Source: Sipunculus nudus (lineage: Eukaryota; Annelida; Sipuncula; Golfingiida; Sipunculidae). Taken from it: 64,000 bases of DNA. Positions 13,068 to 56,949 of this stretch are shown here, piece by piece. The stretch covers positions 49,339,659-49,403,658 of the forward strand of contig CM049313.1 in NCBI GenBank assembly GCA_026874595.1. Direction: 5' to 3'. The notes under the pieces were generated by a model. It was not told the origin of the DNA, made no database searches, and saw nothing but the letters and a program-made list of their open reading frames with translations. The position numbers and the translations under genes are program-made. The stretch's first letter is position 1; each line of letters begins with the position of its first letter.

Positions 13068-13806
13068 TATTACGGAACCTATTTCAAATTAAACAGATTC
13101 CGTTAATCTAGGCAGCGTGAAATGTCCAGGGGAACGAATAAAGAAGTCAGTGTTTTTTTGTTAACAAATAACTATAATTTATTTTTAAAACAATCATAAC
13201 ATTACAATACACTAAATAAATACAATTACACAGTATAACAAATAAAATGTACAGTACCAGAGTGTCCGGATCCTAGGCTTTGATTCTGGATACCACCACT
13301 GTCACAGCTCTGCAAGAACCCTTAACATAAATATTGCATATGAACAGTTCATGCAAATCTGCTCAGAGAATAGTCCGATTCAATCCCGAAATCAATCTGT
13401 TGTAATCCAAAAGTGAAGTTCTGGTAATAATCCCAAAGGCAAACTGAGAATATCTATAAGTTCTGCAATTATCGGAAAGGTCCCATAAACAACTCATACT
13501 CTTCCGTGTCCGCTTGAATTTATGCTCTCTCTCCCCGGCTTTAAACACAGCCCCTAATTCATAGCTTCTCATCCGAAAATACTAGAATTGGAAAATTATC
13601 AAAGAACAATACACACGCACATGAACAGACCTGAAATATAAAAACAAAGAACGCTATGTTTCTACTCTCCAGATCCAACTCCTGCGCTAGGGCCCAAACA
13701 TGCGAGGTTCCAATAGCAACGAACTATGCCTGTGCTACACGCACCAGAATGTCAACAGACACATGTAACACTCCTGCGCACAACAAAACAGATACCTGTA
13801 AGACTA
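13068..13806. mobile_element. Solo LTR copy, family TGTTACGGAACC (diverged)
   Basis: Starts with TTACGGAACCT and shares, in order with the copies at 23289, 23856 and 41446: GGCAGCGTGAAATGTC, AGGGGAA, AATAAAGAAGTCAGTG, TTGTTAACAAATAACTATAA followed by TTTAT, CACTGTCACAG, GAATCTGCT-like and CACAGCCCC blocks, ending near ACCTGTAAGAC. No internal retrotransposon coding lies next to it. It abuts the 3' end of the LINE at about 13000. Confidence 0.7.
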
Positions 13807-17720: not shown

Positions 17721-17994
17721 AAACTAATTTGCTACAATGAAAGAGAATACCAACCTTCCACATTTTTAAATATATCAAATTAATAATATATCTGGGAAAA
17801 TGGTTCTTGCAGCAAAACATTTCTAATCCGGTTGTGTCAGACAAAGGTATTCGTCACCTACAAAAACAGAGACTTCTGGAAGCTAATGATTAAATGATGT
17901 CATGCAGAGTCCTTAAAAACCAACACTGAAAATTGTATGTTTATCCAGTGATGTATTTTATCTGTCACATCACGGAAAAGTGTTCGGAAAACAA

Positions 17995-18258
17995 GCTTTA
18001 AAATATAAACATATAAAGCTGTAAATATAAATATATAAAGTTATGAATTATAAACATATAAAGCTGTAAAATATTAACATATCAAGCTGTAAAATATTAA
18101 CATATCAAGCAGTATAATATAAAGATATAAAGCTGTAAATATAAACATATAAAGCTATGAATTATAAACATATAAAGCCTTATAATATAAACATATAGAG
18201 CTGTAAAATATAAACAAATAAAGCTGTAAAGCATAAACATAAAAAGCTGTAAAACAGT
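17995..18258. repeat. Degenerate 22-24 bp minisatellite
   Basis: About eleven or twelve units of AAGCTGTAAAATATAAACAT followed by ATA, with variants such as AAGCTATGAATTATAAACAT and AAGCTGTAAAATATTAACAT. It is followed downstream by a C/A homopolymer tract at 18350-18378. Confidence 0.85.
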
Positions 18259-23288: not shown

Positions 23289-24856
23289 TTTTACGGAACC
23301 TAATATCACCAGATCACGTATGCGTGATGAACACAAATTTTGTAATGGAGATAAATAAAATCAAATTCTGTAACACTAGGCAGCGTGAAATGTCTAGGGA
23401 TATGAATAAAGAAGTCAGTGGTTTTATGTTAACAAATAACTATAATTTATTCTTAAAACAACCCTAACATTACAATACACCAAATCAATACAATTACACA
23501 GTATGACAGTATAACAGCAAATCAATATAATCACACAGCCTAATAAACAAAGTGCACAGTACCTGGATAACACCACTGTCACAGCGACAAGTCCTTTAAA
23601 ATGTATAAGCCGGATAAATAGTTTACACAAATTCTCTCGGAGAATAACAGTCCAATGTAAAACTCTTGTAACTATCCCGAAAGTAAATTGAAGACCAAAT
23701 AAGATTCGTCACAAATCCAGAAGAAAATCTGAAGAAAATCTATAATTACCGCACTTATCGAAAAAGGTCCCACAAACTGAATTGCACGCTTCTGTGTCCG
23801 CTGGAATATTCTCTCACCTCTCTCCGGCTCTAAAACACAGCCCCTATTTAAACCTTGTTACGAAACCTAATATAAACAGATCCCTCATGCGTGATGAACA
23901 CAAATTTTGTAATGGAGATAAAAAAATCAGATTCTGTAACACTAGGCAGCGTGAAATGTCTAGGGGAATGAAGTAAGAAGTCAGTGTTTTTTTTTATACA
24001 ATACACTAAATCAATACAATTATACAGTAAAACAGCGTTATAGCAACAATTCAAAACAATCACACAGAAAGATAATGGTTCAGTACCTCGATACCAACAC
24101 CGTCACCACAAGAAGTCCTTTGAATGTAAACTATTGGAGAATGACAGTCCAGTGGAAAGTTCTTGCAACAACACAGAAAGTAAACTAGGGTCCAAATGTA
24201 TAAAATCCAAGAGAAAGTTCTTGAAATTCTATAATTGCCGCATTCGTGGGATAAGGTCCTGACACACGCTTCTGGGTCCGCTGGAATCTGCTCTGCTCTA
24301 CTGTCTTCCCTCTGGTTCTAAAAAAAAAACAGCCCCTTTATATACCTTCACACCCCAATTTTCCACTTCTCGAACAGTCTATAAGGACCCTACTCAACAG
24401 TAAACACTCGTTTAAGGAATTCTATAGAAAGAACAGCGCTGTGTATCTCCACACACCAGGCTCATCACGTGACCCACGAACAGGCGTGAAAATTCAAGGC
24501 TCACATGACAACGAGAGTTCAACCAGTACGGATTAAACATAAAATGTAACAACAACACGAGTTACGCCCGTGTCACACAATAAAAAGGGCACCTGTAACA
24601 ACCTTTCATCCGAAAACTGTAGAAAATTCCCTTTCACGAACAATCGAAAAGAACAATACACGTACACAGACGCGAACATTCGAGACAGGCACGGCAGCGA
24701 GCTGTTACACTCCGCGAGAGTTCAACCAGTACGGATTTAACTGAGAGTGCAACACCCAGCCAGGCGAGGCCGCTACAACACGAGTTACGCCCGTGTCACA
24801 CAATAAAAAAGACATTTGTAAGACTTGTGCACACAATTAAAAGGGCACCTGTAACA
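23289..24856. mobile_element. Solo LTR interrupted by a second LTR of the same family
   Basis: The left part 23289-23855 begins TTTTACGGAACCTAATAT and the right part 24601-24856 ends GGGCACCTGTAACA. The intervening 23856-24600 is a complete related LTR. The right part continues (CTTTCATCCGAAAACTG..., GAACAATACACG) exactly as the uninterrupted copy at 13068 does (CTTCTCATCCGAAAATACTAG, GAACAATACACAC), which proves the nesting. Near its end the GTGTCACACAATAAAA block is locally duplicated. Confidence 0.8.
23856..24600. mobile_element. Complete nested solo LTR with 4-bp target duplication
   Basis: 745 bp, starting TGTTACGAAACC and ending CACCTGTAACA, i.e. TG...CA termini with a short inverted TGTTAC/GTAACA. 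It is flanked by ACCT on both sides (23852-23855 and 24601-24604). Internal candidates are a TATA-like CCCCTTTATATACC near 24336 and CACACAATAAAA (polyadenylation-like) about 20 bp before the end. TG...CA ends plus 4-bp duplication fit Ty3/Gypsy-like LTRs. No primer site, gag or pol is nearby, so it is a solo LTR. Confidence 0.8.
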
Positions 24857-25084
24857 CTGCTCTATGCCATTTCACCATCCGGCTTAAGTGAATGTACTGG
24901 TTATACCCACATCTGTGAATAGAACATCACAATCGGAATCCGCAACAAGTGCAGACAGCACTGAAACAGTGCATGATTTGCATTTTATTCGTTGAATTTG
25001 ATAGGCAGTTGTGATTCGAGCCCGAACCTCTTGGGGCATGTTAATTATTCATATAATAGATACTGCAGAAGAATGCAGAGTCAA

Positions 25085-25536
25085 GGTCTGTGAAAGGGTA
25101 GCGCACGAAGATGCGCTGTATGATTAAAACGAAAAATGATAATTGCATGTATTGACAAAATTCCTCGTATATGTTTCCTAATGAGATTCTATTCAAGACA
25201 GATGCCAATGGGGCGGATCATTATAAGAACAGTGAACAGTATGTCTCAAGGCCGTAGATCGTATTTCTCGGTTATTTTTTCAGATGGTAATCAATTGACT
25301 GCGGGGTCGAGGTCTGTGAAAGCGTAGCGCACGCAGATGCGCTGTATGATTAAGGACGAAAAATGATAATTGCATTTTTTGACATAACTCCTCGTACGTT
25401 TCCCAATGAGATATCTATTCTACTCAAGACAGATGCATATGAAGCGGATCATTATAAGAACAGTGAGCAGTATGTCTCAAGGCCGTAGATCGTATTTCAC
25501 GGTTATTTTTAAGATAGTAATCAATATAGTTAGATC
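25085..25536. repeat. 226-bp tandem duplication, two units
   Basis: GGTCTGTGAAAG starts at 25085 and again at 25311. The units share GTAGCGCACG...AGATGCGCTGTATGA, GCGGATCATTATAAGAACAG and AGTATGTCTCAAGGCCGTAG. Each unit has GCGCA-(6 bp)-TGCGC, a small hairpin. Identity is high with a few indels. The frames 25136 and 25406 are the same reading from each unit and look non-coding. Confidence 0.85.
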
Positions 25537-27530: not shown

Positions 27531-29590
27531 AGACACTGACGTTACCTAAAACAATCACATAACCGGTATTTAATGGCTAACCGCCAGGACTGTTGGGCTC
27601 CATAACCCATGCATGAGCTGCAGCATCTTAGGAGGATTTTGTTTGGTCCATCATAGCTACTAAAGAAGGTGTCATTCTTATTATAAATGGAAACAGTTAA
27701 CTAGGGCCTGAGCCTTACAAATACAACTTTATGAACTTATTTTGCAAAGGTTCAGGCACGCCCTGACAATTTACGTAATTGGTTGCCCCCTAAAAAATTA
27801 CTGAACAGATTTTGCGACCCCCCCCCCCCAAACACGCCCCTGCGGAAGCTTTGTGACGCGGTACATAGCTGTTTTTGAGCACATCATCTACAACTCTTTG
27901 CAAAATTTCAATCCAGAGTTCTGAAAAAGGTAGTTTCATATATAAGACAGAAAGAAACATACTCTATTTTCATCTTTAGATGACAGAGGAATATCGAGAG
28001 TCAAGTGTACAGTATTTTTTTTATCAAAAACGGCAGCTTTGTGATGCGGTTGTTATTGTGCACACCTTATACCTCTCCTGTGTGTGTTATTACTGTCCAG
28101 ATTCTCGTGTTGCCAAGTTATTAGCACACGTAAGCCACGAAGACATTTTTCCTGTGTGAAATAAAATGACCTGCATATACTTCTTCGGTGTCAAAACCTC
28201 TCATTTAATAATTATATTATAATAACCTAGTGAATTAATATAATGAAAATTATCGCAATCCGCCTGCATAACATGCATTATATTAGAATATGAAAATACC
28301 TAGCCCTAAAGATAAGAGGTTAAAACTGAGTTGCTTTTTAATTTGTCTAATTGTTATTAATTTACAAATTGCGTTGTAATTGTGATATATTCTAGTTTGT
28401 TTCTAAACAAAGAATAAGCTTAATGTCATAGAAACCTTTCAGGCCCCAACTCCTTTTGTATTTTTGAATTGTGTAGTATCCGGGGAATTCCATTTTGAAA
28501 AGTCATTTAGGCACAACCTTCAGTTTTGAGAATTCTGTTCTGGCGTCTGTTGTTTGCTTTTGTAAAAAAATTATGTTTATTAATTAAAAGAGGCCCCAAC
28601 AAGTTATCCTTAATCAGTCTGGTTATTGGGTTGAAAATGTGTAGTCAGCCCTTGACCAGTATAATTTATGTCGGTCCGAATTTCTCAGGGGAGAGAAACA
28701 CGTAGGAGTTGGAGCTTGACAATAACTAAAGACCAGATGGACTCTCTGAAACTGAAGAATGCCAACTCTTGGTCCACCCGTGTATTGAAGCACCTTACCT
28801 CACTATTTAATATACTCATTACTCTTTATGCGTAATATTCGCTGTGTGAAAGTAGTTTTTTTTTTGCCTTAGAAGAAATATGTTCAAGACTGTCCAGTGT
28901 CTGTATGCACTGTGTGAACATAAGGGTTCCTACTAAATTATTGCACTTCTGTTATGGCTCCTGGCGAGATAGTAGAACTGGTAGACCACGTATGGTGTGC
29001 CTTGACCAATTAAGCCTGGGTTTATTTCTATATCCAAATTTGGGCAAAACAATGTGATGGGTCTCCCAGAGTGCTGATTTCATTTGATTTACTTTCTTCT
29101 TCCATTTCTAGTTTGCGCTAAATCTCCAAAATGTCTTACAGGTGCTAAAACTTGGACACTTTATTAGTCCTAGGTCACAGATTTGCTTCCGATATATTTT
29201 TTTTTATCTTCACCTTATTCGAAAGGCCAAGGTGTGAATGTATCCGGGTGGTGTTTGCATGGTGGGAATGAGACGTGTATGTCGGTTCCCTTTAGAACGG
29301 AATAACGCTTTTTTGTAGAACACCTAAATCCGCAAATGATAATAGGCTGCAGTACCATTAAGGATCAGATATTGTGGTCGGAATTATATTTTACTTGCAG
29401 CATAGTTTATTATTAAGAGCCATATGTTGTGGCTAATATTGAGTCTCATTAATCAAAGGGGAGCTTGTAGAGTTTCCTAAGAAATTAAATACAATGTGTA
29501 GCTTGAAAATCTTGTTTTACATGTTATTAAGAGATCGTTGTTTCTCTTCACAGTGGAAAACTAGAGCATTTCTATTTTGAAAAGCAAGAG
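27531..29590. other. Spacer before the satellite, no gene
   Basis: A short duplicated block, CTTTGTGA(C/T)GCGGT, occurs at about 27850 and 28034. C-run near 27818-27828. The last 40 bp before 29591 (GAGCATTTCTATTTTGAAAA) may be a badly decayed partial satellite unit. Confidence 0.4.
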
Positions 29591-32500
29591 CTTCGCACAT
29601 GCGCCCTACTGAGTTTAACCACGAGAGGAAAATGCTCGTACTCGGTGACCATTTTAGCTACGCACATGCGCCCTACTGAGTTTAACCACGAGAGGAAAAT
29701 GCTCGTACTCGGTGACCATTTTAGCTTCGCACATGCGCCCTACTGAGTTTAACCACGAGAGGCAAATGCTCGTACTCGGTGACCATTTTAGCTTCGCACA
29801 TGTGCCCTACTGAGTTTAACCACGAGAGGCAAATGCTCGTACTCGGTGACCATTTTAGCTTCGCACATGTGCCCTACTGAGTGCAACCACGAGAGGCAAA
29901 TGCTCGTACTCGGTGACCATTTTAGCTTCGCACATGTGCCCTACTGAGTGCAACCACGAGAGGCAAATGCTCGTACTCGGTGACCATTTTAGCTTCGCAC
30001 ATGTGCCCTACTGTGTGCAACCACGAGAGGCAAATGCTCGTACTCGGTGACCATTTTAGCTTCGCACATGTGCCCTACTGAGTTTAACCACGAGAGGCAA
30101 ATGCTCGTACTCGGTGACCATTCTAGCTTCGCACATGTGCCCTACTGAGTGCAACCACGAGAGGCAAATGCTCGTACTCGGTGACCATTTTAGCTTCGCA
30201 CATGTGCCCTACTGAGTTTGACCACGAGAGGCAAATGCTCGTACTCGGTGACCATTTTAGCTTCGCACATGTGCCCTACTGAGTGCAACCACGAGAGGCA
30301 AATGCTCGTACTCGGTGACCATTTTAGCTTCGCACATGTGCCCTACTGTGTGCAACCACGAGAGGCAAATGCTCGTACTCGGTGACCATTTTAGCTTCGC
30401 ACATGTGCCCTATTGATTTTAACCACGAGAGGCAAATGCTCGTACTCGGTGACCATTCTAGCTTCGCACATGTGCCCTACTGAGTGCAACCACGAGAGGC
30501 AAATGCTCGTACTCGGTGACCATTTTAACTTCGCACATGTGCCCTACTGAGTGCAACCACGAGAGGCAAATGCTCGTACTCGGTGACCATTTTAGCTTCG
30601 CACATGTGCCCTACTGAGTGCAACCACGAGAGGCAAATGCTCGTACTCGGTGACCATTTTAGCTTCGCACATGTGCCCTACTGAGTTTAACCACGAGAGG
30701 CAAATGCTCGTACTCGGTAACCATTTTAGCTTCGCACATGCGCCCTACTGAGTGCAACCACGAGAGGCAAATGCTCGTACTCGGTGACCATTTTAGCTTC
30801 GCAAATGCGCCCTACTGAGTGCAACCACGAGAGGCAAATGCTCGTACTCGGTGACCATTTTAGCTTCGCACATGTGCCCTACTGAGTTTAACCACGAGAG
30901 GCAAATGCTCGTACTCGGTGACCATTTTAGCTTCGCACATGCGCCCTACTGAGTGCAACCACGAGAGGCAAATGCTCGTACTCTGTGACCATTTTAGCTT
31001 CGCACATGCGCCCTACTGAGTGCAACCACGAGAGGCAAATGCTCGTACTCGGTGACCATTTGAGCTTCGCACATGTGCCCTACTGAGTGCAACAACGAGA
31101 GGCAAATGCTCGTACTCGGTGACCATTTTAGCTTCGCACATGCGCCCTACTGAGTGCAACCACGAGAGGCAAATGCTCGTACTCGGTGACCATTTTAGCT
31201 TCGCACATGTGCCCTACTGAGTGCAACCACGAGAGGCAAATGCTCGTACTCGGTGACCATTTTAGCTTCGCACATGCGGCCTACTGAGTGCAACCACGAG
31301 AGGCAAATGCTCGTACACGGTGACCATTTTAGCTTCGCACATGCGCCCTACTGAGTGCAACCACGAGAGGCAAATGCTCGTACTCGGTGACCATTTTAGC
31401 TTCGCACATGTGCCCTACTGAGTGCAACCACGAGAGGCAAATGCTCGTACTCGGTGACCATTTTAGCTTCGCACATGTGCCCTACTGAGTTTAACCACGA
31501 GAGGCAAATGCTCGTACTCGGTGACCATTTTATCTTCGCACATGCGCCCTACTGAGTTTAACGACGAGAGGCAAATGCTCGTACTCGGTGACCATTTTAG
31601 CTTCGCACATGCGCCCTACTGAGTTTAACCACGAGAGGAAAATGCTCGTACTCGGTGACCATTTTAGCTACGCACATGCGCCCTACTGAGTTTAACCACG
31701 AGAGGAAAATGCTCGTACTCGGTGACCATTTTAGCTTCGCACATGCGCCCTACTGAGTTTAACCACGAGAGGCAAATGCTCGTACTCGGTGACCATTTTA
31801 GCTTCGCACATGTGCCCTACTGAGTTTAACCACGAGAGGCAAATGCTCGTACTCGGTGACCATTTTAGCTTCGCACATGTGCCCTACTGAGTGCAACCAC
31901 GAGAGGCAAATGCTCGTACTCGGTGACCATTTTAGCTTCGCACATGTGCCCTACTGAGTGCAACCACGAGAGGCAAATGCTCGTACTCGGTGACCATTTT
32001 AGCTTCGCACATGTGCCCTACTGTGTGCAACCACGAGAGGCAAATGCTCGTACTCGGTGACCATTTTAGCTTCGCACATGTGCCCTACTGAGTTTAACCA
32101 CGAGAGGCAAATGCTCGTACTCGGTGACCATTCTAGCTTCGCACATGTGCCCTACTGAGTGCAACCACGAGAGGCAAATGCTCGTACTCGGTGACCATTT
32201 TAGCTTCGCACATGTGCCCTACTGAGTTTGACCACGAGAGGCAAATGCTCGTACTCGGTGACCATTTTAGCTTCGCACATGTGCCCTACTGAGTGCAACC
32301 ACGAGAGGCAAATGCTCGTACTCGGTGACCATTTTAGCTTCGCACATGTGCCCTACTGTGTGCAACCACGAGAGGCAAATGCTCGTACTCGGTGACCATT
32401 TTAGCTTCGCACATGTGCCCTATTGATTTTAACCACGAGAGGCAAATGCTCGTACTCGGTGACCATTCTAGCTTCGCACATGTGCCCTACTGAGTGCAAC

Positions 32501-35500
32501 CACGAGAGGCAAATGCTCGTACTCGGTGACCATTTTAACTTCGCACATGTGCCCTACTGAGTGCAACCACGAGAGGCAAATGCTCGTACTCGGTGACCAT
32601 TTTAGCTTCGCACATGTGCCCTACTGAGTGCAACCACGAGAGGCAAATGCTCGTACTCGGTGACCATTTTAGCTTCGCACATGTGCCCTACTGAGTTTAA
32701 CCACGAGAGGCAAATGCTCGTACTCGGTAACCATTTTAGCTTCGCACATGCGCCCTACTGAGTGCAACCACGAGAGGCAAATGCTCGTACTCGGTGACCA
32801 TTTTAGCTTCGCAAATGCGCCCTACTGAGTGCAACCACGAGAGGCAAATGCTCGTACTCGGTGACCATTTTAGCTTCGCACATGTGCCCTACTGAGTTTA
32901 ACCACGAGAGGCAAATGCTCGTACTCGGTGACCATTTTAGCTTCGCACATGTGCCCTACTGAGTGCAACCACGAGAGGCAAATGCTCGTACTCGGTGACC
33001 ATTTTAGCTTCGCACATGCGCCCTACTGAGTGCAACCACGAGAGGCAAATGCTCGTACTCGGTGACCATTTTAGCTTCGCACATGTGCCCTACTGAGTGC
33101 AACAACGAGAGGCAAATGCTCGTACTCGGTGACCATTTTAGCTTCGCACATGCGCCCTACTGAGTGCAACCACGAGAGGCAAATGCTCGTACTCGGTGAC
33201 CATTTTAGCTTCGCACATGCGCCCTACTGAGTGCAACCACGAGAGGCAAATGCTCGTACTCGGTGACCATTTTAGCTTCGCACATGCGGCCTACTGAGTG
33301 CAACCACGAGAGGCAAATGCTCGTACACGGTGACCATTTTAGCTTCGCACATGCGCCCTACTGAGTGCAACCACGAGAGGCAAATGCTCGTACTCGGTGA
33401 CCATTTTAGCTTCGCACATGTGCCCTACTGAGTGCAACCACGAGAGGCAAATGCTCGTACTCGGTGACCATTTTAGCTTCGCACATGTGCCCTACTGAGT
33501 TTAACCACGAGAGGCAAATGCTCGTACTCGGTGACCATTTTAGCTTCGCACATGTGCCCTACTGAGTGCAACCACGAGAGGCAAATGCTCGTACTCGGTG
33601 ACCATTTTAGCTTCGCACATGTGCCCTACTGAGTTTAACCACGAGAGGCAAATGCTCGTACTCGGTAACCATTTTAGCTTCGCACATGCGCCCTACTGAG
33701 TGCAACCACGAGAGGCAAATGCTCGTACTCGGTGACCATTTTAGCTTCGCACATGTGCCCTACTGAGTTTAACCACGAGAGGCAAATGCTCGTACTCGGT
33801 AACCATTTTAGCTTCGCACATGCGCCCTACTGAGTGCAACCACGAGAGGCAAATGCTCGTACTCGGTGACCATTTTAGCTTCGCAAATGCGCCCTACTGA
33901 GTGCAACCACGAGAGGCAAATGCTCGTACTCGGTGACCATTTTAGCTTCGCACATGTGCCCTACTGAGTTTAACCACGAGAGGCAAATGCTCGTACTCGG
34001 TGACCATTTTAGCTTCGCACATGTGCCCTACTGAGTGCAACCACGAGAGGCAAATGCTCGTACTCGGTGACCATTTTAGCTTCGCACATGCGCCCTACTG
34101 AGTGGAACCACGAGAGGCAAATGCTCGTACTCGGTGACCTTTTTAGCTTCGCACATGTGCCCTACTGAGTGCAACAACGAGAGGCAAATGCTCGTACTCG
34201 GTGACCATTTTAGCTTCGCACATGCGCCCTACTGAGTGCAACCACGAGAGGCAAATGCTCGTACTCGGTGACCATTTTAGCTTCGCACATGCGCCCTACT
34301 GAGTGCAACCACGAGAGGCAAATGCTCGTACTCGGTGACCATTTTAGCTTCGCACATGCGGCCTACTGAGTGCAACCACGAGAGGCAAATGCTCGTACAC
34401 GGTGACCATTTTAGCTTCGCACATGCGCCCTACTGAGTGCAACCACGAGAGGCAAATGCTCGTACTCGGTGACCATTTTAGCTTCGCACATGTGCCCTAC
34501 TGAGTGCAACCACGAGAGGCAAATGCTCGTACTCGGTGACCATTTTAGCTTCGCACATGTGCCCTACTGAGTTTAACCACGAGAGGCAAATGCTCGTACT
34601 CGGTGACCATTTTATCTTCGCACATGCGCCCTACTGAGTTTAACCACGAGAGGCAAATGCTCGTACTCGGTGACCATTTTAGCTTCGCACATGCGCCCTA
34701 CTGAGTTTAACCACGAGAGGCAAATGCTCGTACTCGGTGACCATTTTAGCTTCGCACATGCGCCCTACTGAGTGCAACCACGAGAGGCAAATGCTCGTAC
34801 TCGGTGACCATTTTATCTTCGCACATGCGCCCTACTGAGTGCAACCACGAGAGGAAAATGCTCGTACTCGGTGATCATTTTAGCTTCGCACATGTGCCCT
34901 ACTGAGTGCAACCACGAGAGGCAAATGCTCGTACTCGGTGATCATTTTAGCTTCGCACATGTGCCCTACTGAGTGCAACCACGAGAGGCAAATGCTCGTA
35001 CTCGGTGACCATTTTAGCTTCGCACATGCGCCCTACTGAGTGCAACCACGAGAGGCAAATGCTCGTACTCGGTGACCATTTTAGCTTCGCACATGCGCCC
35101 TACTGAGTGCAACCACGAGAGGCAAATGCTCGTACTCGGTGACCATTTTAGCTTCGCACATGTGCCCTACTGAGTTTAACCACGAGAGGCAAATGCTCGT
35201 ACTCGGTGACCATTTTAGCTTCGCACATTTGCCCTACTGAGTTTAACCACGAGAGGCAAATGCTCGTACTCGGTGACCATTTTAGCTTCGCACATGCGCC
35301 CTACTGAGTGCAACCACGAGAGGCAAATGCTCGTACTCGGTGACCATTTTAGCTTCGCACATGTGCCCTACTGATTGCAACCACGAAAGCAAATGCTCGT
35401 ACTCGGTGACCATTTTAGCTTCGCACATGCGCCCTACTGAGAGTAACCACGAGAGGCAAATGCTCGTACTCTGTGACCATTTTAGCTTCGCACATGCGCC

Positions 35501-36962
35501 CTACTGAGTGCAACCACGAGAGGCAAATGCTCGTACTCGGTGACCATTTTAGCTTCGCACATGCGCCCTACTGAGTGCAGCCACGAGAGGCAAATGCTCG
35601 TACTCGGTGACCATTTTAGCTTCGCACATGCGCCCTACTGAGTGCAACCACGAGAGACAAATGCTCGTACTCGGTGACCATTTTAGCTTCGCACATGCGC
35701 CCTACTGAGTGCAACCACGAGAGGCAAATGCTCGTACTCGGTGACCATTTTAGCTTCGCACATGCGCCCTACTGAGTTTAACCACGAGAGGCAAATGCTC
35801 GTACTCTGTGACCATTTTAGCTTCGCACATGCGCCCTACTGAGTTTAACAACGAGAGGCAAATGCTCGTACTCGGTGACCATTTTAGCTTTGCACATGTG
35901 CCCTACTGAGTTTAACCACGAGAGGCAAATGCTCGTACTCGGTGAGCATTTTAGCTTCGCACATGTGCCCTACTGAGTTTAACCACGAGAGGCCAATGCT
36001 CGTACTCGGTGACCATTTTAGCTTCGCACATGCGCCCTACTGAGTTTAACCACGAGAGGCAAATGCTCGTACTCGGTGACCATTTTAGCTTCGCACATGC
36101 GCCTTACTGAGTTTAACCACGAGAGGCAAATGCTCGTACTCGGTAACCATTTTAGCTTCGCACATGCGCCCTACTGAGTGCAACCACGAGAGGCAAATGC
36201 TCGTACTCGGTGACCATTTTAGCTTCGCACATGCGCCCTACTGAGTTTAACCACGAGAGGCAAATGCTCGTACTCGGTGACCATTTTAGCTTCGCACATG
36301 CGCCCTACTGAGTGCAACCACGAGAGGCAAATGCTCGTACTCGGTGACCATTTTAGCTTCGCACATGCGCCCTACTGAGTTTAACCACAAGAGGCAAATG
36401 CTCGTACTCGGTAACCATTTTAGCTTCGCACATGTGCCCTACTGAGTGCAACAACGAGAGGGAAATGCTCGTACTCGGTGACCATTTTAGCTTCGCACAT
36501 GTGCCCTAATGAGTTTAACCACGAGAGGGAAAATGCTCGTACTCGGTGACCATTTCAGCTTCGCACATGTGCCCTACTGAGTTTAACCACGAGAGGCAAA
36601 TGCTCGTACTCGGTGACCATTTTTGCTTCGCACATGCGCCCTACTGAGTTTAACCACGAGAGGCAAATGCTCGTACTCGTTGACCATTTTAGCTTCGCAC
36701 ATGCGCCCTACTGAGTTTAACCACGAGAGGCAAATGTTCGTACTCGATGACCATTTTAGCTTCGCACATGCGCCCTACTGAGTGCAACTACGAGAGGCAA
36801 ATGCTCGTACTCGGTGACCATTTTAGCTTCGCACATGCGCCCTAATGAGTGCAACCACGAGAGGCAAATGCTCGTACTCGGTGACCATTTAAGCTTCGCA
36901 CATGTGCTCTACTGAGTGCAACCACGAGAGGCAAACGCTCGTACTCGGTGACCATTTTAGTT
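29591..36962. repeat. 67-bp satellite array, about 110 monomers, with higher-order blocks
   Basis: The unit starts CTTCGCACATGCGCCCTACT, continues GAGTGCAACCACGAGAGGCA and ends AATGCTCGTACTCGGTGACC then ATTTTAG. Starts at 29591, 29658 and 29725 give a period of 67, and the last full unit starts at 36894, exactly 109 periods later; one -1 indel (near 35383) and one +1 indel (near 36525) cancel. Two main classes differ at GAGTTTAACC or GAGTGCAACC and at ATGCGCC or ATGTGCC. Diagnostic variants repeat at 2,010 bp (30 units) between 29591-31530 and 31601-33540. Those of the second block repeat again at 1,072 bp (16 units), for example GCAAATGCGC at 32811 and 33883, and CACATGCGGC at 33281 and 34353. 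Units after about 34850 are more heterogeneous. The period is not a multiple of three and nothing is coded. Confidence 0.98.
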
Positions 36963-37570
36963 CAGCTCACTGAAAGTCAACTGAGCTATAACAATCACTC
37001 CTTGTCCGTCGTCCGTCCCTCTGTCCGGTAATCAGGCACAGATTGGAACCGCTGGACCTAGAATCTTGTAAATCCTAATAGATCCAATAAAATCTCCTTG
37101 GAAACCTAGAATTGGGTCTCTGTTACCAATATCCTTTGAGCTATGGGACTCAATCCCCCCCCTCCCGAATAATTAAAACGTTGATTCAAAAGCTCAAGTC
37201 TCTGAATAACAAATGCATTGTTTGCCATGATCCTATGCATGCTTATTGATCATGGACTGTTTCACCAGTTCATAGTGGCGCCACCTGGATTATTTCGTAT
37301 TTGACGCATTTTTTTTCTCTATTTTTGAGACCTTCAAACATGTGGTCATCGGTAACAGGGCACAAATCGTAACCATTGGACCTAAAATCTTCTAACTTGA
37401 CATCCAGGAAGGTCCATTGAAATTCTCCTTGGAAATCTTAAATTAGGTCTCTGTTACCCATATACTCCGAGCTATGCTTCAGTTGAATGGGGATACCACC
37501 AAAATTTGGCATACAGATAATAAGGTTCCCTTTGTGAATGTCCTTAGTCAGCTTAGCGTCATGACCCCAG
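36963..37570. repeat. Dispersed mollusc-type repeat with GTCCGTC motif and internal duplication
   Basis: The array stops at TTCAGCTCACTGAAAGTCAA followed by CTGAGCTATAAC. Next comes TCCGTCGTCCGTCCCTCTGT, a word pattern I associate with common molluscan dispersed repeats. A block of about 115-125 bp occurs twice in direct orientation (37031-37145 and 37352-37475): GGACCTAGAATCTTGTAA/GGACCTAAAATCTTCTAA, AATCTCCTTGGAAACCT/AATTCTCCTTGGAAATCT, GGTCTCTGTTACC, GAGCTATG. A further fragment is at 14190. Confidence 0.7.
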
Positions 37571-38451
37571 GGTCAATAGTTCATATCCTGTGTCGCAGGG
37601 GCGTAGCCACTAGCCAGGACTGAGGAAGGGGAGGGGCCCGAAATACTTGGCAAAGGCAACACACACACAAACACACATATTGTGACGGCTCCTTTTGTGT
37701 ACCACAAGAATGGACATGTGTACCTAAATTAGATCAAGAGGACAAGCAACCTTGATTAACTGTGGACCGTTTTGAATAGGCTCATAATGCAAATACTCAA
37801 GGGCTTGATCTGTTGATGAATAACACAGCTGAAGTGTGTCCGCCTCCATGGAATCTTTAAAAAGTGGTGCGGTACGAATACACACTCTGAGGGGAAATTA
37901 ATGTTACGTATGGGGCCTGCGCTAGTAAGGCAGCCCGTTGACTAGCGACAGCCTGTCACCACAAACGTCGATTTTTGATGAACTGAAGACGATGGGGTGA
38001 CAGTCCAAGCTATCAGTTTATTTCCGAAGGCGTGGGTGTCATGTTGTCGTGGCTACCCGTTGACAGGCCTGAATAACATAGGTAAGCCTGTCTCACTTCT
38101 ATAGTTACTGTAAATATGTTCGCATTGTAAAAGATTTAAGTAAACTGTCACCTGAGTCATGATTATGTTAACTACAGGCCCTGTGTCTGTAAACATCATG
38201 TAACTTTGGTTTATAATAGGGCTAAAGCCCTGACACTTTTATATTTGCGGCGAGAACGCCATCATTTAATTGCCACAAGGCCAAACTATGTAATATATGA
38301 TAACAATATTACGTACAACGTATAGTGGCCTTAAGCCAAGTGTCTGTCACCATTTCTGTGTATTCTATTTGGCCAGGTGTATAAAATATCTGTTTTCTCT
38401 TATCCAGACTACAACTATTTATTAGACCCCATTATTTCATTCTCTCTTAGT
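37571..38451. other. Spacer with no recognised gene
   Basis: Contains CACACACAAACACACA near 37660-37676 and a perfect short palindrome GGGCTAAAGCCC-like at 38219-38230. No coding seen. Confidence 0.35.
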
Positions 38452-38490
38452 CCGAGAGACGTAAATGCTCCGTACTCGTAAGATCATTTT
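38452..38490. repeat. Lone diverged satellite-like unit
   Basis: CCGAGAGACGTAAATGCTCC followed by GTACTCGTAAGATCATTTT aligns to the satellite segment CACGAGAGGCAAATGCTCGT then ACTCGGTGACCATTTT with several small indels. It lies about 1.5 kb outside the array. It may be a diverged orphan unit or part of the source element. Confidence 0.5.
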
Positions 38491-39857
38491 CTTCAACATT
38501 CCTGTCCGGTGGATTAGTCCGGCGTCCATGTATTTTCATATTTCTACAAACTAAACTACTGAGCCTTTATTAGTGTTCTGACGTTGTTTGGTCCAGATAT
38601 ATGAATTCAGTTTATGAGCTCAGCTCCAGAGGCAGCGGAAATCTTGTGATATAGGTATTAGGCCTATAGGTAAAGCGCTTGTCTATACAGCGTATTTATG
38701 AGCCAGCCGTAACAGCTGGAACATGTATATAATATTCAGTGTTGTTTAAGGTTTAACCTTCTTCCATATTGTTTTGTATACGTGCATGATTAATGCAAAT
38801 TTTGTTCAATAGCACAGTTGGAACATCACCACTATTCAATTAACATTTCATTATAATCTTTTGTACATCTTAAGTTCACTTATATGCATATGTATCTGGT
38901 CACGTTTTTATATAAAGTCAAATTTCTGTTTATTCTATTACCTGTTTCGTGTTTTGGCTTCTATGCTTTATGTCTAGGGTCTGGATGCGTTTGCTTCCCC
39001 TAGTCAAATAAGCACGAGCCCCAGGCAATCTTGACAATAATGCATATGTAGGTATCTGAGTCACTACCGCCGGTTTTTTATCATTTCTTTTTCGCAGGTA
39101 TGGGTGCCCTTCATCCATTGCAAAAGGTAGTTCAAATTTTGGAACGTTTGTTAGGCAAGTCCTTTTGTTTGGAGAACAGGCGTTTGACTTTCTTTAAATG
39201 TGATATATATGGCTTGTCGGGGTATACATTCTGCCCGATTTCAGACCTATGGGCGTGATACGTCCCCCTTATCTGAATCATCATAATATATACTTTAATA
39301 AACCATATATTTCATATTAAAAGCTTTCAAGCGCCAAGCATTGCCAGTTTCTCGGCTAAACACAATTTGCACTGATGTGAAGTCTTCTGGATTATAGGTC
39401 AGGTATTGATGAAATGTTGTTGCATGTCACTCAGGGTCCATACATATAAATGATAAATTAATATATATGCTAAATATTTACAGTGGCTTCAATTTATCTT
39501 CAAGGGTGGGGGCGATGATAACTAGCAGGCGTAAGGGGCGGGGGGGGGGGGGGGAGGCTGGCTATCCAAAATTCGGACCTTTATATACACACACAAATAT
39601 ATATTATATTATAATATGGAATTTTTCATTTCTAGAATTTTCAGGTGAGAAGCTATAAATTAGGGGCTATTTTACAGCCGGTAGAAAGGAAAATACTAGC
39701 GGGCACTAAGAGTGTTACTTTCTCGTTAGTTTTGGGACCTTACCGATAATTGCAGTGGTGTAAGCTATTTAACGGACTTAATACACTTAGTATGTGTACA
39801 CTGTCTCCAGTTTGCCATTGGATTATTACTATTTAAGTGGATTATGGATGTTAAAGG
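38491..39857. other. Unassigned spacer
   Basis: G-run at about 39538-39554. No gene or repeat recognised. Confidence 0.35.
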
Positions 39858-40158
39858 ACTCTTTCTTGTAGAGCTGTGACAGTGGTGGTATTAAGACATC
39901 AAAGCCTAGGATCCGGACACTCTGGTACTGTACATTCTTTTTGTTATACTGTATAATTTTATTGCTTTAGTGTATTGTAAATGTTAAGAATGTTCTAAGA
40001 ATAAATTATGATTATTTGTTATCCAAAAAATACTGATTTCTTTATTCATTCCCCTAGACATTTCATGCTGCCTAGTGTTACAGAATCTGATTTTTTTTCA
40101 TCTCCGTAACAAAATTTGTGCTGATCACGGTTACGTGATTTCTTATTATAAGGTTCCG

Positions 40159-40161
<3 letters not shown>
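39858..40161 (-). mobile_element. Truncated inverted copy of the TGTTACGGAACC LTR
   Basis: The reverse complement matches the first ~260-300 bp of the LTR family. Its end AGGTTCCGTTA (40151-40161) equals the LTR start, and CTAGACATTTCATGCTGCCT then AGTGTTACAGAATCTGA, ...AAAGCCTAGGATCCGGACAC, and CTGTGACAGTGGTGGTA correspond to blocks at 13068-13325. The other half is missing. Its terminus runs directly into a (TA)n tract. Confidence 0.75.

Positions 40162-40210
<49 letters not shown>
40162..40210. repeat. (TA)n microsatellite
   Basis: About 24 TA units abutting the LTR end. Confidence 0.95.
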
Positions 40211-40212
<2 letters not shown>

Positions 40213-40452
40213 TTTATTGTATTGTGCTACATTTAAAAAAAAAACTATTACCATTTAGTGTACGCTTTTAAAAACTTAGTATTGAATATTATGATATATA
40301 TAACATTCCTTAGTTAACCAAAGTCTATAATTCTAATTATTACTATATTTCATTTCAAATAATTAGTTATTATTCTCTGGATATCAGGGGGGATGATTAC
40401 ATTGAACATCCTCCTTGCATCCTACCCCCCTTTCCCCTATATTGACGCCCCT

Positions 40453-40513
40453 GTATATATATGTATATATATGTGTATATATATATATATATATTATATA
40501 TATATATATATAA

Positions 40514-40546
<33 letters not shown>

Positions 40547-40550
40547 TTAT
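40453..40550. repeat. Interrupted (TA)n microsatellite
   Basis: TA units with G, C and TAA interruptions; partly palindromic. Confidence 0.9.
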
Positions 40551-41309
40551 TTCACACAAGATACTGTTTTAATAACAATTAAAAATAAAATGTTGAACAA
40601 GATGAATAAATAAAATATATATTTATATTTGCATTGTAGAATTATTAATAAACAATACATTAGTTACTGCATGTGCAATGCGTACATGCTTAGTAGACAT
40701 CTAAGCCCTTTAATCAGTTATGGGGCTTAAGCTTCCTTGGATGTCTCCTTGCTAATATCCCTGGGCACTTGCTCGGACTTAGTTGCCAGACCAGTAAGTC
40801 TCACTTTCCCAAATCATACGGATGGTAAAACGTAATGGAAACAAAACTACATTTTCTTTAATTTTTTTTATTTAAATAAGCCTCAAATCATAAGATAGGA
40901 GTGATTGTGTTTCAGAAAATATCATCATTATAAGACCAGGTAAAATTTCGGGAGAACGAGAATACCGACCGGCAGGACCGGGGACAGAGTGGGGAGGGGG
41001 TCTCCCTTTTGCTACGGCCCTAGCTGGCTGCTCCTGCCTGTGTGGGTGCTGTGGCTTCCTGCGGTCAATGGTACAAGAAAACGCTGGCGGCCTCATACGA
41101 CCCTTGGCTTGGCTTGTGTGGCATCGCGTCTATCGGCTTCATCAATTTGAAATTAATCAAAATCACACCTAAGAAGCGCCTTGCTCTAAGGTCCCAGACC
41201 TCAGTGGTAGCTTTCTATAGCTTTTCCAGAGTTGCTTGGTCAGGTCAAACTTCTTCTTTCTGTCTGTCCCTTGCGTTGACTCCTGCCGCAGAAAGCACGA
41301 AAGGTGAAC
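40551..41309. other. Spacer with a GC-richer island, no gene recognised
   Basis: 40970-41300 is clearly GC-richer than its surroundings and carries open frames on both strands (plus 41042-41323, minus 41096-40872), but neither shows a domain I recognise. It could be the 5' region of an element or a decayed exon. Confidence 0.3.
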
Positions 41310-41445
41310 GACTAAACGGGTGAGTGGAAGAGTGAGAGAGTGGATGGATATATAGTGGAGTAATTTATAGTGCTGAATGGAGAAAGTGAATGAATTGCAG
41401 AGTAGTTGGAATGCAGTCAGTGACTGAATTAGGTAGAGTGTGTGT
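41310..41445. repeat. Degenerate GAGTGAATG-type minisatellite, left half
   Basis: GAGTGGAAGAGTGAGAGAGT, ...GAATGGAGAAAGTGAATG..., TAGAGTGTGTG. The same word set resumes at 42242 on the other side of the LTR. Confidence 0.6.
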
Positions 41446-42241
41446 TGTTACGGAACCTAATATAAACAGATAACATATGTGTGATGAACACAAATTTTGT
41501 AATGGAGATAAAAAAATCAGATTCTGTAACACTAGGCAGTGTGAAATATCTAGGGGAATGAATAAAGAAATCAGTGGTTTTTTGTTAACAAATAACCATA
41601 ATTTATTCCTAAAACAACCCTAAAACTACAATACACCAAATCAATACAATTATACAGTAAAACAGTGGTATTAGAACAAATCAATACAATCACACAGTAA
41701 AATACACAAAGTGCCAGGAGCTGGATACTACCAGCGTCACAATGAAAAGTTCTTTAAATGTATACTCTCGGAGAATGACAGTCCAGTGTAAAGCTCTTGT
41801 AATAATCAAGAAAGTAAACTTAAGTCCAAATGCACAAAAACCGGGAGAAAGTCTGAAGAAAATCTATAACTGCCGCACAAGTCGGATAAGGTCCCAGAAA
41901 CGAACACACACGCTTCTGCGTCCGCTGGAAATCTTCTCTGCTGCTCTCTCTCTCGGCTCTAAAACACAGCCCCTTTATATACTCTTCACCCCAAGCCGAG
42001 AATTTTCCACTTCTCGAACAGTCTAAAAGATCTTACACAACACAGTAAACATGCGTTACAGGAATCATCTAGAAGAACTTCGTTGTGTGTCTCTACATAT
42101 CAGGGTCCACGTGACCTCGGCCAGGCGAGAAAGCCCCTAGCTAGCATGACAACGAGAGTTCAACCAGTACGGATTAAACATAGAGTGCAACAACAATACG
42201 AGTTACGTCCGTGTCACACAATAAAAAGAGCTCCTGTAACA
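41446..42241. mobile_element. Complete solo LTR with 4-bp target duplication
   Basis: 796 bp from TGTTACGGAACC to CTCCTGTAACA, flanked by GTGT on both sides (41442-41445, 42242-42245). Same block order as the copy at 23856: GTGATGAACACAAATTTTGT, AACACTAGGCAG, TTGTTAACAAATAAC, CACCAAATCAATACAATTA, CACAGCCCCTTTATATA, TCAACCAGTACGGATTAAAC, GTCACACAATAAAA. Because the flank is GT-rich, the 4-bp match alone is weak; the agreement with the nested copy strengthens it. Confidence 0.82.
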
Positions 42242-53786: not shown

Positions 53787-54310
53787 ATTCAGTCATTCAA
53801 CATTTACACGGGTACACGAAAACAGGAAAGGCTTGTAAACCACATGATATTATAAAGCTAATGATGTAAGTTATTTTCCGTGTTAAACCTGTATCTTTGT
53901 TTTGCATACAGACATTTGTACCCCGTTAAACCATAGCATATGACTGGCTTCCCAGTAAAGGATGGCGAATGTGATATAGAATGTTAGCGGCTGAAAAATC
54001 ACCTGTCACACACGTAGGTGTTTAATCGATTAGACCGAGGCGAGGTTGTTGCCTGTGTAGTCATCTGTGATTGGTTTAAAGATTGCAGGATCTATCCAAT
54101 CGGGTTTGAGAATCTGATCATGTGAGATCAATAAACACTATTGGAGAACCCAGCGTTGATGTCTGGTATCTACACGGGCGTTGAGCAGCCCTTATAACTG
54201 CAACAGCCGCAAGAATTCTCTAGTTTGCTAGAAACACTAGCTGGAGGAAAGATCTGTCCCGGTGGAGTGACGCCAAAACTTGCTTGTGCTGTTATAATAG
54301 CTACTCCGTG

Positions 54311-54979
54311 ATGTCAGCAGTGAAATATGAGCTTCAGTTAATCGAAGACACACAAACGCTAAACAAGAAGACATTTAAGAGACTTTTAGTTACTTCCACT
54401 GAGGAGAGTAAACAGCTATGGGTCCATAAGCTCAAGGCAATGCCTCCAAATTACCTGTTGGCTACAACGACCATGGCATACCACTTAGTCGACGAAGATA
54501 ACGTAAACTGTTCAGGAGATGCTACGACTACGTCCATGCCGGAACCATTGACAAAAGACATGGTATTTTCCGACGATAACTTATTCTCAGTGATTGTATA
54601 CTCCTTTTTGTTTGTGATCGCAGCATGCGGAAATCTGACTGTGTTTATAACACTGTTCAGGAATCGTCATCGTCGCTCAAGGGTTAATATGTTCATAATG
54701 CACCTTTGCATTGCGGACATGATCGTGGCTTTTATCATGCTTCCTCTTGAAATAGCATGGCATATCACGGTAGCGTGGAAAGCAGGCGACGTGGCTTGTC
54801 GGATTCTTATGTACTTTCGTGCATTCGGTTTCTACCTCTCTTCTTTTATTCTCATCACCATCAGTCTGGACCGTTACTTCGCTATTCTCCATCCGCTGAG
54901 CTTGAATGATGCTGACAAAAGAGGAAAACTCATGTTACTTCTGGCATGGCTTTTCAGCGTTGTTGCTACTATTCCACAG
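54311..54979 (+). CDS. GNRHR: GnRH-receptor-like class A GPCR, first coding exon (TM1-TM4 start)
   Basis: This exon encodes the N-terminal part of a seven-helix neuropeptide receptor at the plasma membrane, expected to couple to G proteins. Numbering from the first in-frame ATG (54311): N-glycosylation sequon NCS at 66-68; TM1 about 92-116 with GN (107-108); basic loop RNRHRRSR; TM2 about 127-151 with LCIADMIVAF and the conserved Asp at 136; W-K-A-G-D then Cys 163 (disulphide cysteine); TM3 with DRY at 187-189, followed by FAILHPLSLNDADKRGK; start of TM4, AWLFSVVATIPQ. HPLS...K-R-G-K, the FRAFGFYLSSF segment and I-P-Q are typical of GnRH/corazonin/AKH-type receptors. The open frame ends at CCACAG|GTGAGA, a textbook splice donor after codon 223 (phase 0). 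Met codons at 54440 and 54473 are alternative starts. TM4-TM7 are not found downstream, so the first intron exceeds 9 kb. The choice among GnRH, corazonin and AKH subtype is less sure than the superfamily. Confidence 0.85.
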
Positions 54980-56949
54980 GTGAGAAATGCATAAGATCCC
55001 ATTACACCTATACAAAATTGACAAAACAGGAAACATTAATTGACAACTCACTAAACGTTACTCACTTATTTAATATAAACTTTCCGAGCATTTTCGTATT
55101 AAAATGTGATATATTTGGTAGGATGTCGTCGCTATGCACGAGAACGTTCGTCGTCAATCATAAACCATAGCAGGCGTTGAAGCAAAGTACTGACTACACA
55201 CGACCGTTATCTCCGGTTGCTAGATATCATTACACCTTTATCACAACAGAAACTTACTCTGCGCTAGTCAATAACCAACATACATTTTCAAAGCATTTAT
55301 GTTAAAAAATACATAAGTCCCCAGTGAGTACAAAAACGTTCTTCGGCATTCATAACACATCGCAACATTGAAATAAAGTATTGAAGGGCGCAATAAGAAC
55401 ACATGGCAGTTTATACCTCTCGTTAGAAACATGAGATTCCGTTTGAACAACCCATCCTTCCAGTAAAAGCATTTAATATCACAAGAACAGCTCATAAAAG
55501 AAAACCCCTAAGGTAAGAAAGTCTTAGTTCACCGTATGGAATATTCTGATCTTGTATAACCAGTAACTTCGATGGTTAAATGTACACTATTTTGACGATC
55601 TGCAAGTGCTATGAATCTGACGAGTACGGCTTAATATTCATTGCTTGCAATTGTTTCAATAACAGTTAAACCATAGCATACAAAAAGAGTGTAAGAATAC
55701 TTTTTAACATGGTGTAACATCGTCTTTGCCGATTATTAGGGATTCTGAACATTTTATGTTGACATTTGCGGTGGAGGAAACTTATTTGCGGGAATCAGGA
55801 TTTGGTGCGTGTGCTTTTGAATCATACCATACCAGGCATAATAACTATACCTCCACCAGGTGGCGAGGTATATTAAGTTTGATTATTATCCTGGCAGAGG
55901 AGTCCATGTAGGCTCCAATACATTTCTAGTTATAAAACAGTGCCACCCTTAGATCCCAGTAAACGGCTGTCATTGACTTGTAGTGGAATGGCAGTGAATC
56001 TAGCAGGTACCCTGCTCGTGTCATGGCGCTACGTGATTTGTCAGTATATTTTTAAGGTTTTATCGACTTATTTGAAATATGGAATAATGAAAATAACAAA
56101 TAAAAGACAATATCAAGCTAAATTAAAATTAATCACATGATAAGTACATAAGCCATGAGTAAAGCAAATTTCGATAACTCGATATAGGTCGTTCTGACTG
56201 TAGCAAACAACGTTTCTGCTCTTGTTATTTTTATGACACTTTATATTTGAATATACTTCAGACTGAAAGTTTACAGTTCATAAAATTCGAAAAAAAAAAT
56301 TAATTTTAAAACTGAAGGAAACAAAGAAGATATATAAAAATGTTCATCGATATGTTCTTGCTTCTACATACATTTCAAGATTTTCAAACCTTTATAAATA
56401 CCTAACCTTTCACTTTGTAACAACTAATTAAAACAATATCGCTTATGAGAACACATCAAACTGTATCCATATGTATAGAAAATTAAATTTATTATAGAAA
56501 AAAAAATTGTATGAGATTATAAAGATTCTCAAACAGTTGTGATTTTGCGATTGCGATATTTTTTCGTGATGACCCGAGCGAAGACATTCAAGTTAGAGAG
56601 TCCTGGCAATCTCTGGAGTATGACTTGAAGGAAATTTGATTCAGTATTGAACTGATTGGTCAGAAGCTGCCGATCGAGGTTACCATGGTGACTTGTCCGT
56701 TGACATTGACATAAGCTAATGGACAAAAGTAGGATTGGAAGACGGTCCAAATGCCACGGTTCACGAAGGGATAACATTAGTGCATGTATGAGGGAATCAG
56801 GTTTCGTAATTGTTTTTTTTTTCCCGCTTCGATCACGAACCTGCGTCTGACACCCTAGCAATGACACAATCAAAATGTGAACTTGAGCACTTGATGAGCA
56901 TAATAAATCTCCCGCGAAACCTTTGTTAGTGGACCTCACCTATCAGTAA
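54980..56949 (+). other. Start of the receptor intron, no exon recognised
   Basis: Begins GTGAGAAATGC. No stretch resembles TM4-TM7 of a receptor. 55070-55170 and 55280-55370 share TATTAAAA/GTTAAAAA...CGTTCGTCG/CGTTCTTCGGCATTCATAA words and may be two diverged copies of a local duplication. Confidence 0.6.

Follow-up and report, generated by a model that had tools for sequence, protein, structure and literature searches.

A long and regular tandem array raises two questions: whether it belongs to a satellite family or stands at one locus, and whether the history of its growth can still be read from its units. The array considered here lies in a window of 64 kb (the whole stretch of Sipunculus nudus DNA that was analysed) and had been described, in a reading of the sequence only, as a satellite with a 30-mer higher-order repeat. 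Our analysis indicates that it is very probably a locus-specific large minisatellite of the VNTR type, neutral and non-coding, which grew by in-register copying.

The array and its units

29589-36958, + strand: tandem array of 110 units of 67 bp (TRF, unit walk and probe count)

Walking the array unit by unit gave 110 head-to-tail copies of 67 bp, and TRF returned a single array of that period (29589-36960, 110.0 copies, 96% matches), the right end being 36958 by the unit walk and 36960 by TRF. A 20-mer monomer probe allowing up to three mismatches matched 110 times in the window, against a mean of 0.00 over 100 shuffles. The period of 67 and the unit number of about 110 proposed earlier are thus borne out, although not the statement that the period is exact throughout: 108 of the 110 units measure exactly 67 bp, with 66 bp in unit 87 and 68 bp in unit 104. 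The whole amounts to about 7.4 kb in an assembly of 1.43 Gb and 153 contigs.

Units begin with AGCTTCGC, and the last unit ends in TTTT. The monomer is invariant at 32 of its 67 positions; two common polymorphisms, at position 14 and at positions 27-28, exceed all other variants. Average divergence among units is about 4%, and the mean pairwise difference over all unit pairs is 2.87. G+C content is 51%, and the ratio of observed to expected CpG is 1.02 in the array, compared with 0.82 and 0.76 in the flanks.

The array is non-coding, with stops in all six frames (at least 85 in each) and a longest minus-strand open run of 72 codons. Neither Rfam families (at the gathering score) nor tRNAs were found across the 64-kb window. 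Folded as single-stranded DNA, one unit gave a z of 0.03 and two units a z of -2.33, the latter equalled in 4 of 200 shuffles. The 17-bp CENP-B box is a motif by which centromeric repeats are tested; on the minus strand the units hold one site with two mismatches in the core and 102 with three, the best plus-strand site has four mismatches, and the units thus do not carry the box. With no long open frame, known RNA family, CENP-B box or other copies found, nothing points to a function, and we infer that the array has none for its host.

A minisatellite rather than a satellite

A 28-bp core of the monomer, sought with up to three mismatches, gave 108 matches in the 1.43-Gb assembly, all on the same strand and none on the other; within the window it also matched 108 times, each time inside the array. 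The equal totals place all core matches in this array, a placement that follows from the totals, since the genome-wide search gave positions for its first matches only. The reversed core, used as a control, had no match in the assembly, and all 17 genome matches of a 670-bp array query lay inside the array. For repeats, genome searches of this kind give minimum counts, and they cover assembled DNA. The sequence-only reading had proposed a genome-wide search for the monomer; made with the core and the 670-bp query, it places every match in this array.

These counts decide between the two classes of repeat. Minisatellite units measure 10-100 bp by the definition in PMC4411736, a range that includes 67 bp, and the array is specific to one locus in the assembly (108/108; 17/17). 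A satellite family would be abundant, and one 7.4-kb array was found in 1.43 Gb; membership of such a family is rejected, as the whole-genome core count equals that of the array. The head-to-tail units, the 96% matches and the two-copy 30-unit block would all suit a classical satellite organised in 30-mer higher-order repeats and represented in the window by one array, yet the identical core counts, genome-wide and in the window, and the presence of the block in two copies only render this account very improbable. The term higher-order repeat was likewise an overstatement: the 30-unit block occurs twice, followed by one partial copy of 14 units and not by a homogenised series of multimers, and units 77-110 (34 of the 110) lie outside the copies. 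As assigned from the sequence of one assembly haplotype, the VNTR class carries length variation as a prediction.

The case shows that an array, however long and regular within a window, should not be taken for a satellite before it has been counted genome-wide. As a type of repeat the locus is ordinary; its duplication history is well resolved, and a transposon adjoins it. Arrays with at least five units of 20-150 bp were present in five of 39 loci fetched (146 kb, picked for HINEs, which are non-autonomous Helentron-type elements), which suggests that such arrays are common in the Sipunculus nudus genome. Arrays of 34-107-bp units stand near HINE copies at loci L013, L016, L018, L021 and L070, and those of L013, L016 and L070 scored 11-17 against the 67-bp monomer and bear no likeness to it.

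We found no print record of the monomer in the open-access literature. Monomer words (a 14-mer and four others) returned nothing except an 11-mer in papers on unrelated subjects, and '67 bp' was absent from the open-access papers listed for 67-bp repeats and molluscan satellites. A 2,010-bp query had no match in a plasmid collection, nor had an exact 25-mer in prokaryote genomes and viral contigs.

Three nested in-register duplications

Unit comparison divides the array into the following parts.

29589-31598, + strand: block 1, units 1-30 (unit comparison)
31599-33541, + strand: block 2, units 31-59, a copy of units 1-29 whose 30th unit is unit 76 (4 differences in 1,943 bp)
33542-33742, + strand: units 60-62, a copy of units 46-48, opening a 14-unit duplication (0 differences in 201 bp)
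33743-33876, + strand: units 63-64, a two-unit (134 bp) doubling of units 61-62 (0 differences in 134 bp)
33877-34613, + strand: units 65-75, a copy of units 49-59, the remainder of the 14-unit duplication (2 differences in 737 bp, both in unit 68)
34614-34680, + strand: unit 76, partner of unit 30 and final unit of block 2, now displaced (1 difference)
34681-36958, + strand: units 77-110, not covered by the block copies, with higher variability and both odd-length units, 87 and 104 (unit walk and variant counts)

Units 1-29 (29589-31531) and 31-59 (31599-33541) show the near-identity at an offset of 2,010 bp that had been claimed for them, and with units 30 and 76 added the full 30-unit block differs from its copy at 5 positions in 2,010 bp. 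Units 30 apart differ on average at 1.81 positions, as against 2.87 for all pairs, a value not reached in any of 2,000 shuffles of unit order, whose minimum was 2.40 at lag 30 and, over all 69 lags, 2.12. A further copy at an offset of 1,072 bp (16 units) had also been described; its size is right, but it consists of a 14-unit copy of units 46-59, now units 60-62 and 65-75 (2 differences in 938 bp), together with the two-unit doubling. CTCGGTAACC stands at both 33661 and 33795, as reported, and units 61-62 are identical to units 63-64. The resumption of the pattern placed at 34613, at an offset of 3,082 bp, holds as regards the offset but covers a single unit (76, starting at 34614), after which the block is not followed. 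The lag-46 mean of 2.22 is not by itself below the any-lag shuffle minimum of 2.12, and it is backed by a nine-unit run in which units 23-31 and 69-77 differ at three positions. The broader claim of a readable duplication history within one array is therefore upheld by in-register copies with 5/2,010, 2/938, 0/201 and 0/134 differences.

All block offsets are exact multiples of 67 bp. The array very probably grew as runs of units were copied in register, whether through unequal exchange between sister chromatids or homologues, or through replication (break-induced or slipped) in which copies were misaligned; we infer that the large blocks arose by exchange rather than slippage. First, units 1-30 were duplicated, giving units 31-59 and 76; a copy of units 46-59 of block 2 then gave units 60-62 and 65-75, and inside this newest copy the pair 61-62 was doubled as units 63-64. 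The relative order of the two large duplications is legible from shared differences. All four differences between blocks 1 and 2 (units 1-29) fall in units 21-25, and at 4/4 of these sites the newest block agrees with block 2, which indicates that the 30-unit step preceded the 14-unit step.

An earlier step has also left its trace. The substitutions A24T and T66C are common to units 7-8 and 12-13, and the pair occurs elsewhere solely in the block-2 copies, units 37-38 and 42-43; among 64 units, the chance of a random pair coinciding in this way is about 1/2,016. This five-unit echo is a step older than the block duplications. Neither the echo nor the flanking transposon appeared in the sequence-only reading. 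Further older duplication steps were not demonstrable, the best runs of four, five and six units being equalled by 28, 70 and 61 of 100 shuffles, respectively. In the contracted array the best lag was 9 (p 0.01, 1,000 shuffles).

The two common variant sites stand 13 bp apart, and with units 31-76 left out their combinations (position 14 by positions 27-28) occur in 20, 17, 13 and 13 of 64 units, with one other. That all four combinations are frequent points either to exchange inside units or to repeated mutation of the sites. Minor variants, counted with the two common polymorphisms excluded, average 1.03 per unit in units 77-110, 0.67 in units 1-30, 0.52 in units 31-76 and 1.6 in the last ten. 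The 3' end, which had been called older and more mixed, is certainly more mixed; greater age is one reading only, and the same pattern is also explained by edge units being homogenised less often.

Near-identical blocks of 2 kb are a known hazard of assembly, and the assembly is the single source of the evidence for them. An artefact is nevertheless improbable: the copies bear private differences (5/2,010; 2/938) that fit the nested history, the window is free of N, and the 7.4-kb array sits within an 80.9-Mb contig. The minisatellite thus offers a clean case of tandem-array growth, with three nested in-register duplications at one locus and both edges defined.

The transposon at the right edge

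36955-37581, + strand: HINE, delimited by copy alignment (TTTT at 36955-36958 common to the array; 3' subterminal repeat at 37546; palindrome and element end from 37570)

To the right, the array ends at the 5' terminus of this HINE. With a query that spans the edge, matches to a dispersed family set in where the array ends (12,710 candidates at first look, the best 40 scored); the family has thousands of candidate places. Of the first 19 copies fetched, 12 have a best match that starts at window positions 36952-36958. The copies have the layout of a HINE, namely a 5' subterminal repeat, an inverted repeat, a GTCC microsatellite, a 3' subterminal repeat and a palindrome. They have a T-rich start and commonly GCTCAGCTGACT near the 5' end, followed by the near-complement AGTCATCTGAGC; after the GTCC tract, AGTCAGCTGAGC is common near the 3' end, with the palindrome TGACCCATGGGTCA. 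The window HINE has the same layout, with substitutions. Its divergence from a majority sequence built from nine other copies is 15%; for the nine themselves the figure is 8-12%, self-included in that they built the majority. Some other copies contain central repeats of 167 or about 340 bp.

HINEs favour T-rich targets, according to PMC7492417 and PMC4067079, and a T precedes 28 of the 35 HINE 5' ends that were placed, a few of them poorly. TTTTAG reads at 22 of these 35 ends and is common to the array and the HINE at the joint, where the window has TTTTAGTTCAG and 19 of the 35 ends have TTTTAGCT; the window element now starts AGTT, not AGCT. Folded as single-stranded DNA, the HINE 5' end gave a z of -1.94, and 8 of 200 shuffles did as well. 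No array unit was found after the HINE 3' end (37582).

Flanks and neighbouring sequence

29017-29229, no strand assigned: dispersed-repeat fragment (68-83% identity to other places)
29230-29588, no strand assigned: left flank with no other genome match (best 40 of 197 candidates scored)
37675-38624, + strand: second dispersed element (best 40 of 2,095 candidates scored)
38456-38495, + strand: stretch resembling the monomer, inside the second dispersed element and carried by some members of its family

The 359 bp to the left of the array matched nowhere else in the genome among the best 40 of 197 candidates scored, the non-array matches of that search lying in query positions 118-330. To the right, a 93-bp spacer separates the HINE from the second dispersed element. 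Within that element some 115 bp (37942-38056) are missing from at least ten matched relatives and may be a nested insertion.

The stretch at 38456-38495 was considered as a relic of the array. It scored 33 against the monomer, equalled by 1 of 150 dinucleotide shuffles; a second scoring gave 21, equalled by 2 of 60 shuffles, and 30 plain shuffles reached at most 27. The majorities of its relatives score 33 (seven), 12 (five others) and 28 (all twelve). We rejected it as a relic, for it sits in the second dispersed element and some relatives share it; since it belongs to that other element, it provides no evidence for array beyond the HINE. A remote link between the monomer and the second-element family is neither shown nor excluded.

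Further repeats occur in the window. A second minisatellite at 17993-18254 has a 23-bp unit in 11.5 copies, with longer periods of 91 and 114 bp, and a 231-bp tandem duplication at 25080-25525 has two copies with 87% matches. Related dispersed repeats in both orientations lie at 13086-13597, 23291-24821 and 39620-42241, and 39984-40097 and 41510-41623 form an inverted pair (89%). The sole recognised gene piece in the window is a rhodopsin-type GPCR exon at 54284-54994, 17 kb from the array; Pfam 7tm_1 was found in this one of 15 window ORFs examined (5 of 6 from one ORF set and 10 of 62 stop-to-stop ORFs). Its closest solved structure is the gonadotropin-releasing hormone receptor, with vasopressin receptors also among the best.

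Origin of the joint

How the array and the HINE came to adjoin can be read in several ways. Direct contact with a HINE invites the thought that the array is a HINE or Helentron central repeat, carried in by transposition. Yet it lies upstream of the HINE 5' terminus, outside the two ends of an element whose own 3' end lies near 37581; it was found once, and the 359 bp to its left have no other match. We regard such an origin as scarcely credible. An insertion of the HINE into TTTT of an existing array, with later loss of the distal part, is a possibility that we take seriously without thinking it probable, and one compatible with the minisatellite account. The T-rich targets described for HINEs in PMC7492417 and PMC4067079 would fit it, as would locus L010, where by reading a HINE is flanked on both sides by sequence of one 145-bp array. 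It is opposed by the lack of any array unit after 37582 and by the assignment of the monomer-like stretch at 38456 to another dispersed element, and it leaves the extra AG(CT) match at the joint to chance.

It is tempting to speculate that the array was instead born at the HINE terminus, by a founding duplication through microhomology, although we hold this to be rather unlikely. TTTTAG is common to the array and the transposon at the joint, which suggests that the founding duplication may have used the transposon end. The HINE would have landed beside single-copy DNA containing AGCTTCGC; AGCT in that DNA and the terminal AGCT of the HINE, 67 bp apart, would have allowed a microhomology duplication, a step that the HINE 5' end, prone to form hairpins, may have assisted. 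From the tandem pair so founded, unequal exchange would then have built the remaining units. This order is favoured by the absence of units beyond the HINE and by a HINE copy more diverged than the units (about 4%); lower divergence among units would also be expected from homogenisation of the array. Against it, the birth reading draws on one locus, and the window HINE reads AGTT. What probability remains beside birth and insertion belongs to other orders of events.

We rejected the idea that arrays are generally founded at HINE 5' ends, 2 of 35 placed 5' ends adjoining an array (39 loci surveyed, window excluded; arrays of period at least 10 within 25 bp). These two are L010, by reading a HINE insertion into an existing array, and L012, where a repeat of 51 bp x 2.4 stops 14 bp short of the HINE end; L016, flagged as a third case, proved to be a misplaced HINE end. 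The same test at 35 HINE 3' ends gave two short arrays, at L011 and L066. At L010 the HINE stands apparently inside the 145-bp tandem array, with repeats on both sides (932-1504 and from about 2164).

Were birth at the HINE terminus true, a founder duplication at a transposon end would be a second way in which Helentrons yield tandem DNA. Birth of the array beside a Helentron, and not inside one, is a tentative proposal whose truth we doubt.

Comparison with known systems

Alpha-satellite higher-order repeats form long homogenised series at centromeres. Like repeats of that type, the 67-bp array has multi-unit blocks that are more identical than single units; unlike them, it has its block in two copies at one locus. 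In Crassostrea gigas, the most abundant satellite-like arrays are HINE/Helentron central repeats, as reported in PMC7492417. The HINE adjoining our array resembles Cg_HINE of that species in its 5' subterminal repeat, complementary inverted repeat and GTCC-type microsatellite, and also in its 3' subterminal repeat, palindrome and T-rich target, whereas the 67-bp array lies outside the element, abuts its 5' end and was found once. Large single-locus minisatellites are close in kind, for example the human 16q24.1 minisatellite near FOXF1, of 8.6 kb and listed at one locus in the human reference (PMC4411736), with which the array shares a 10-100-bp unit, a single locus and a size of several kilobases. 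The human locus is documented to vary in length, whereas the Sipunculus nudus array is known from one assembly, in which its nested block copies are legible.
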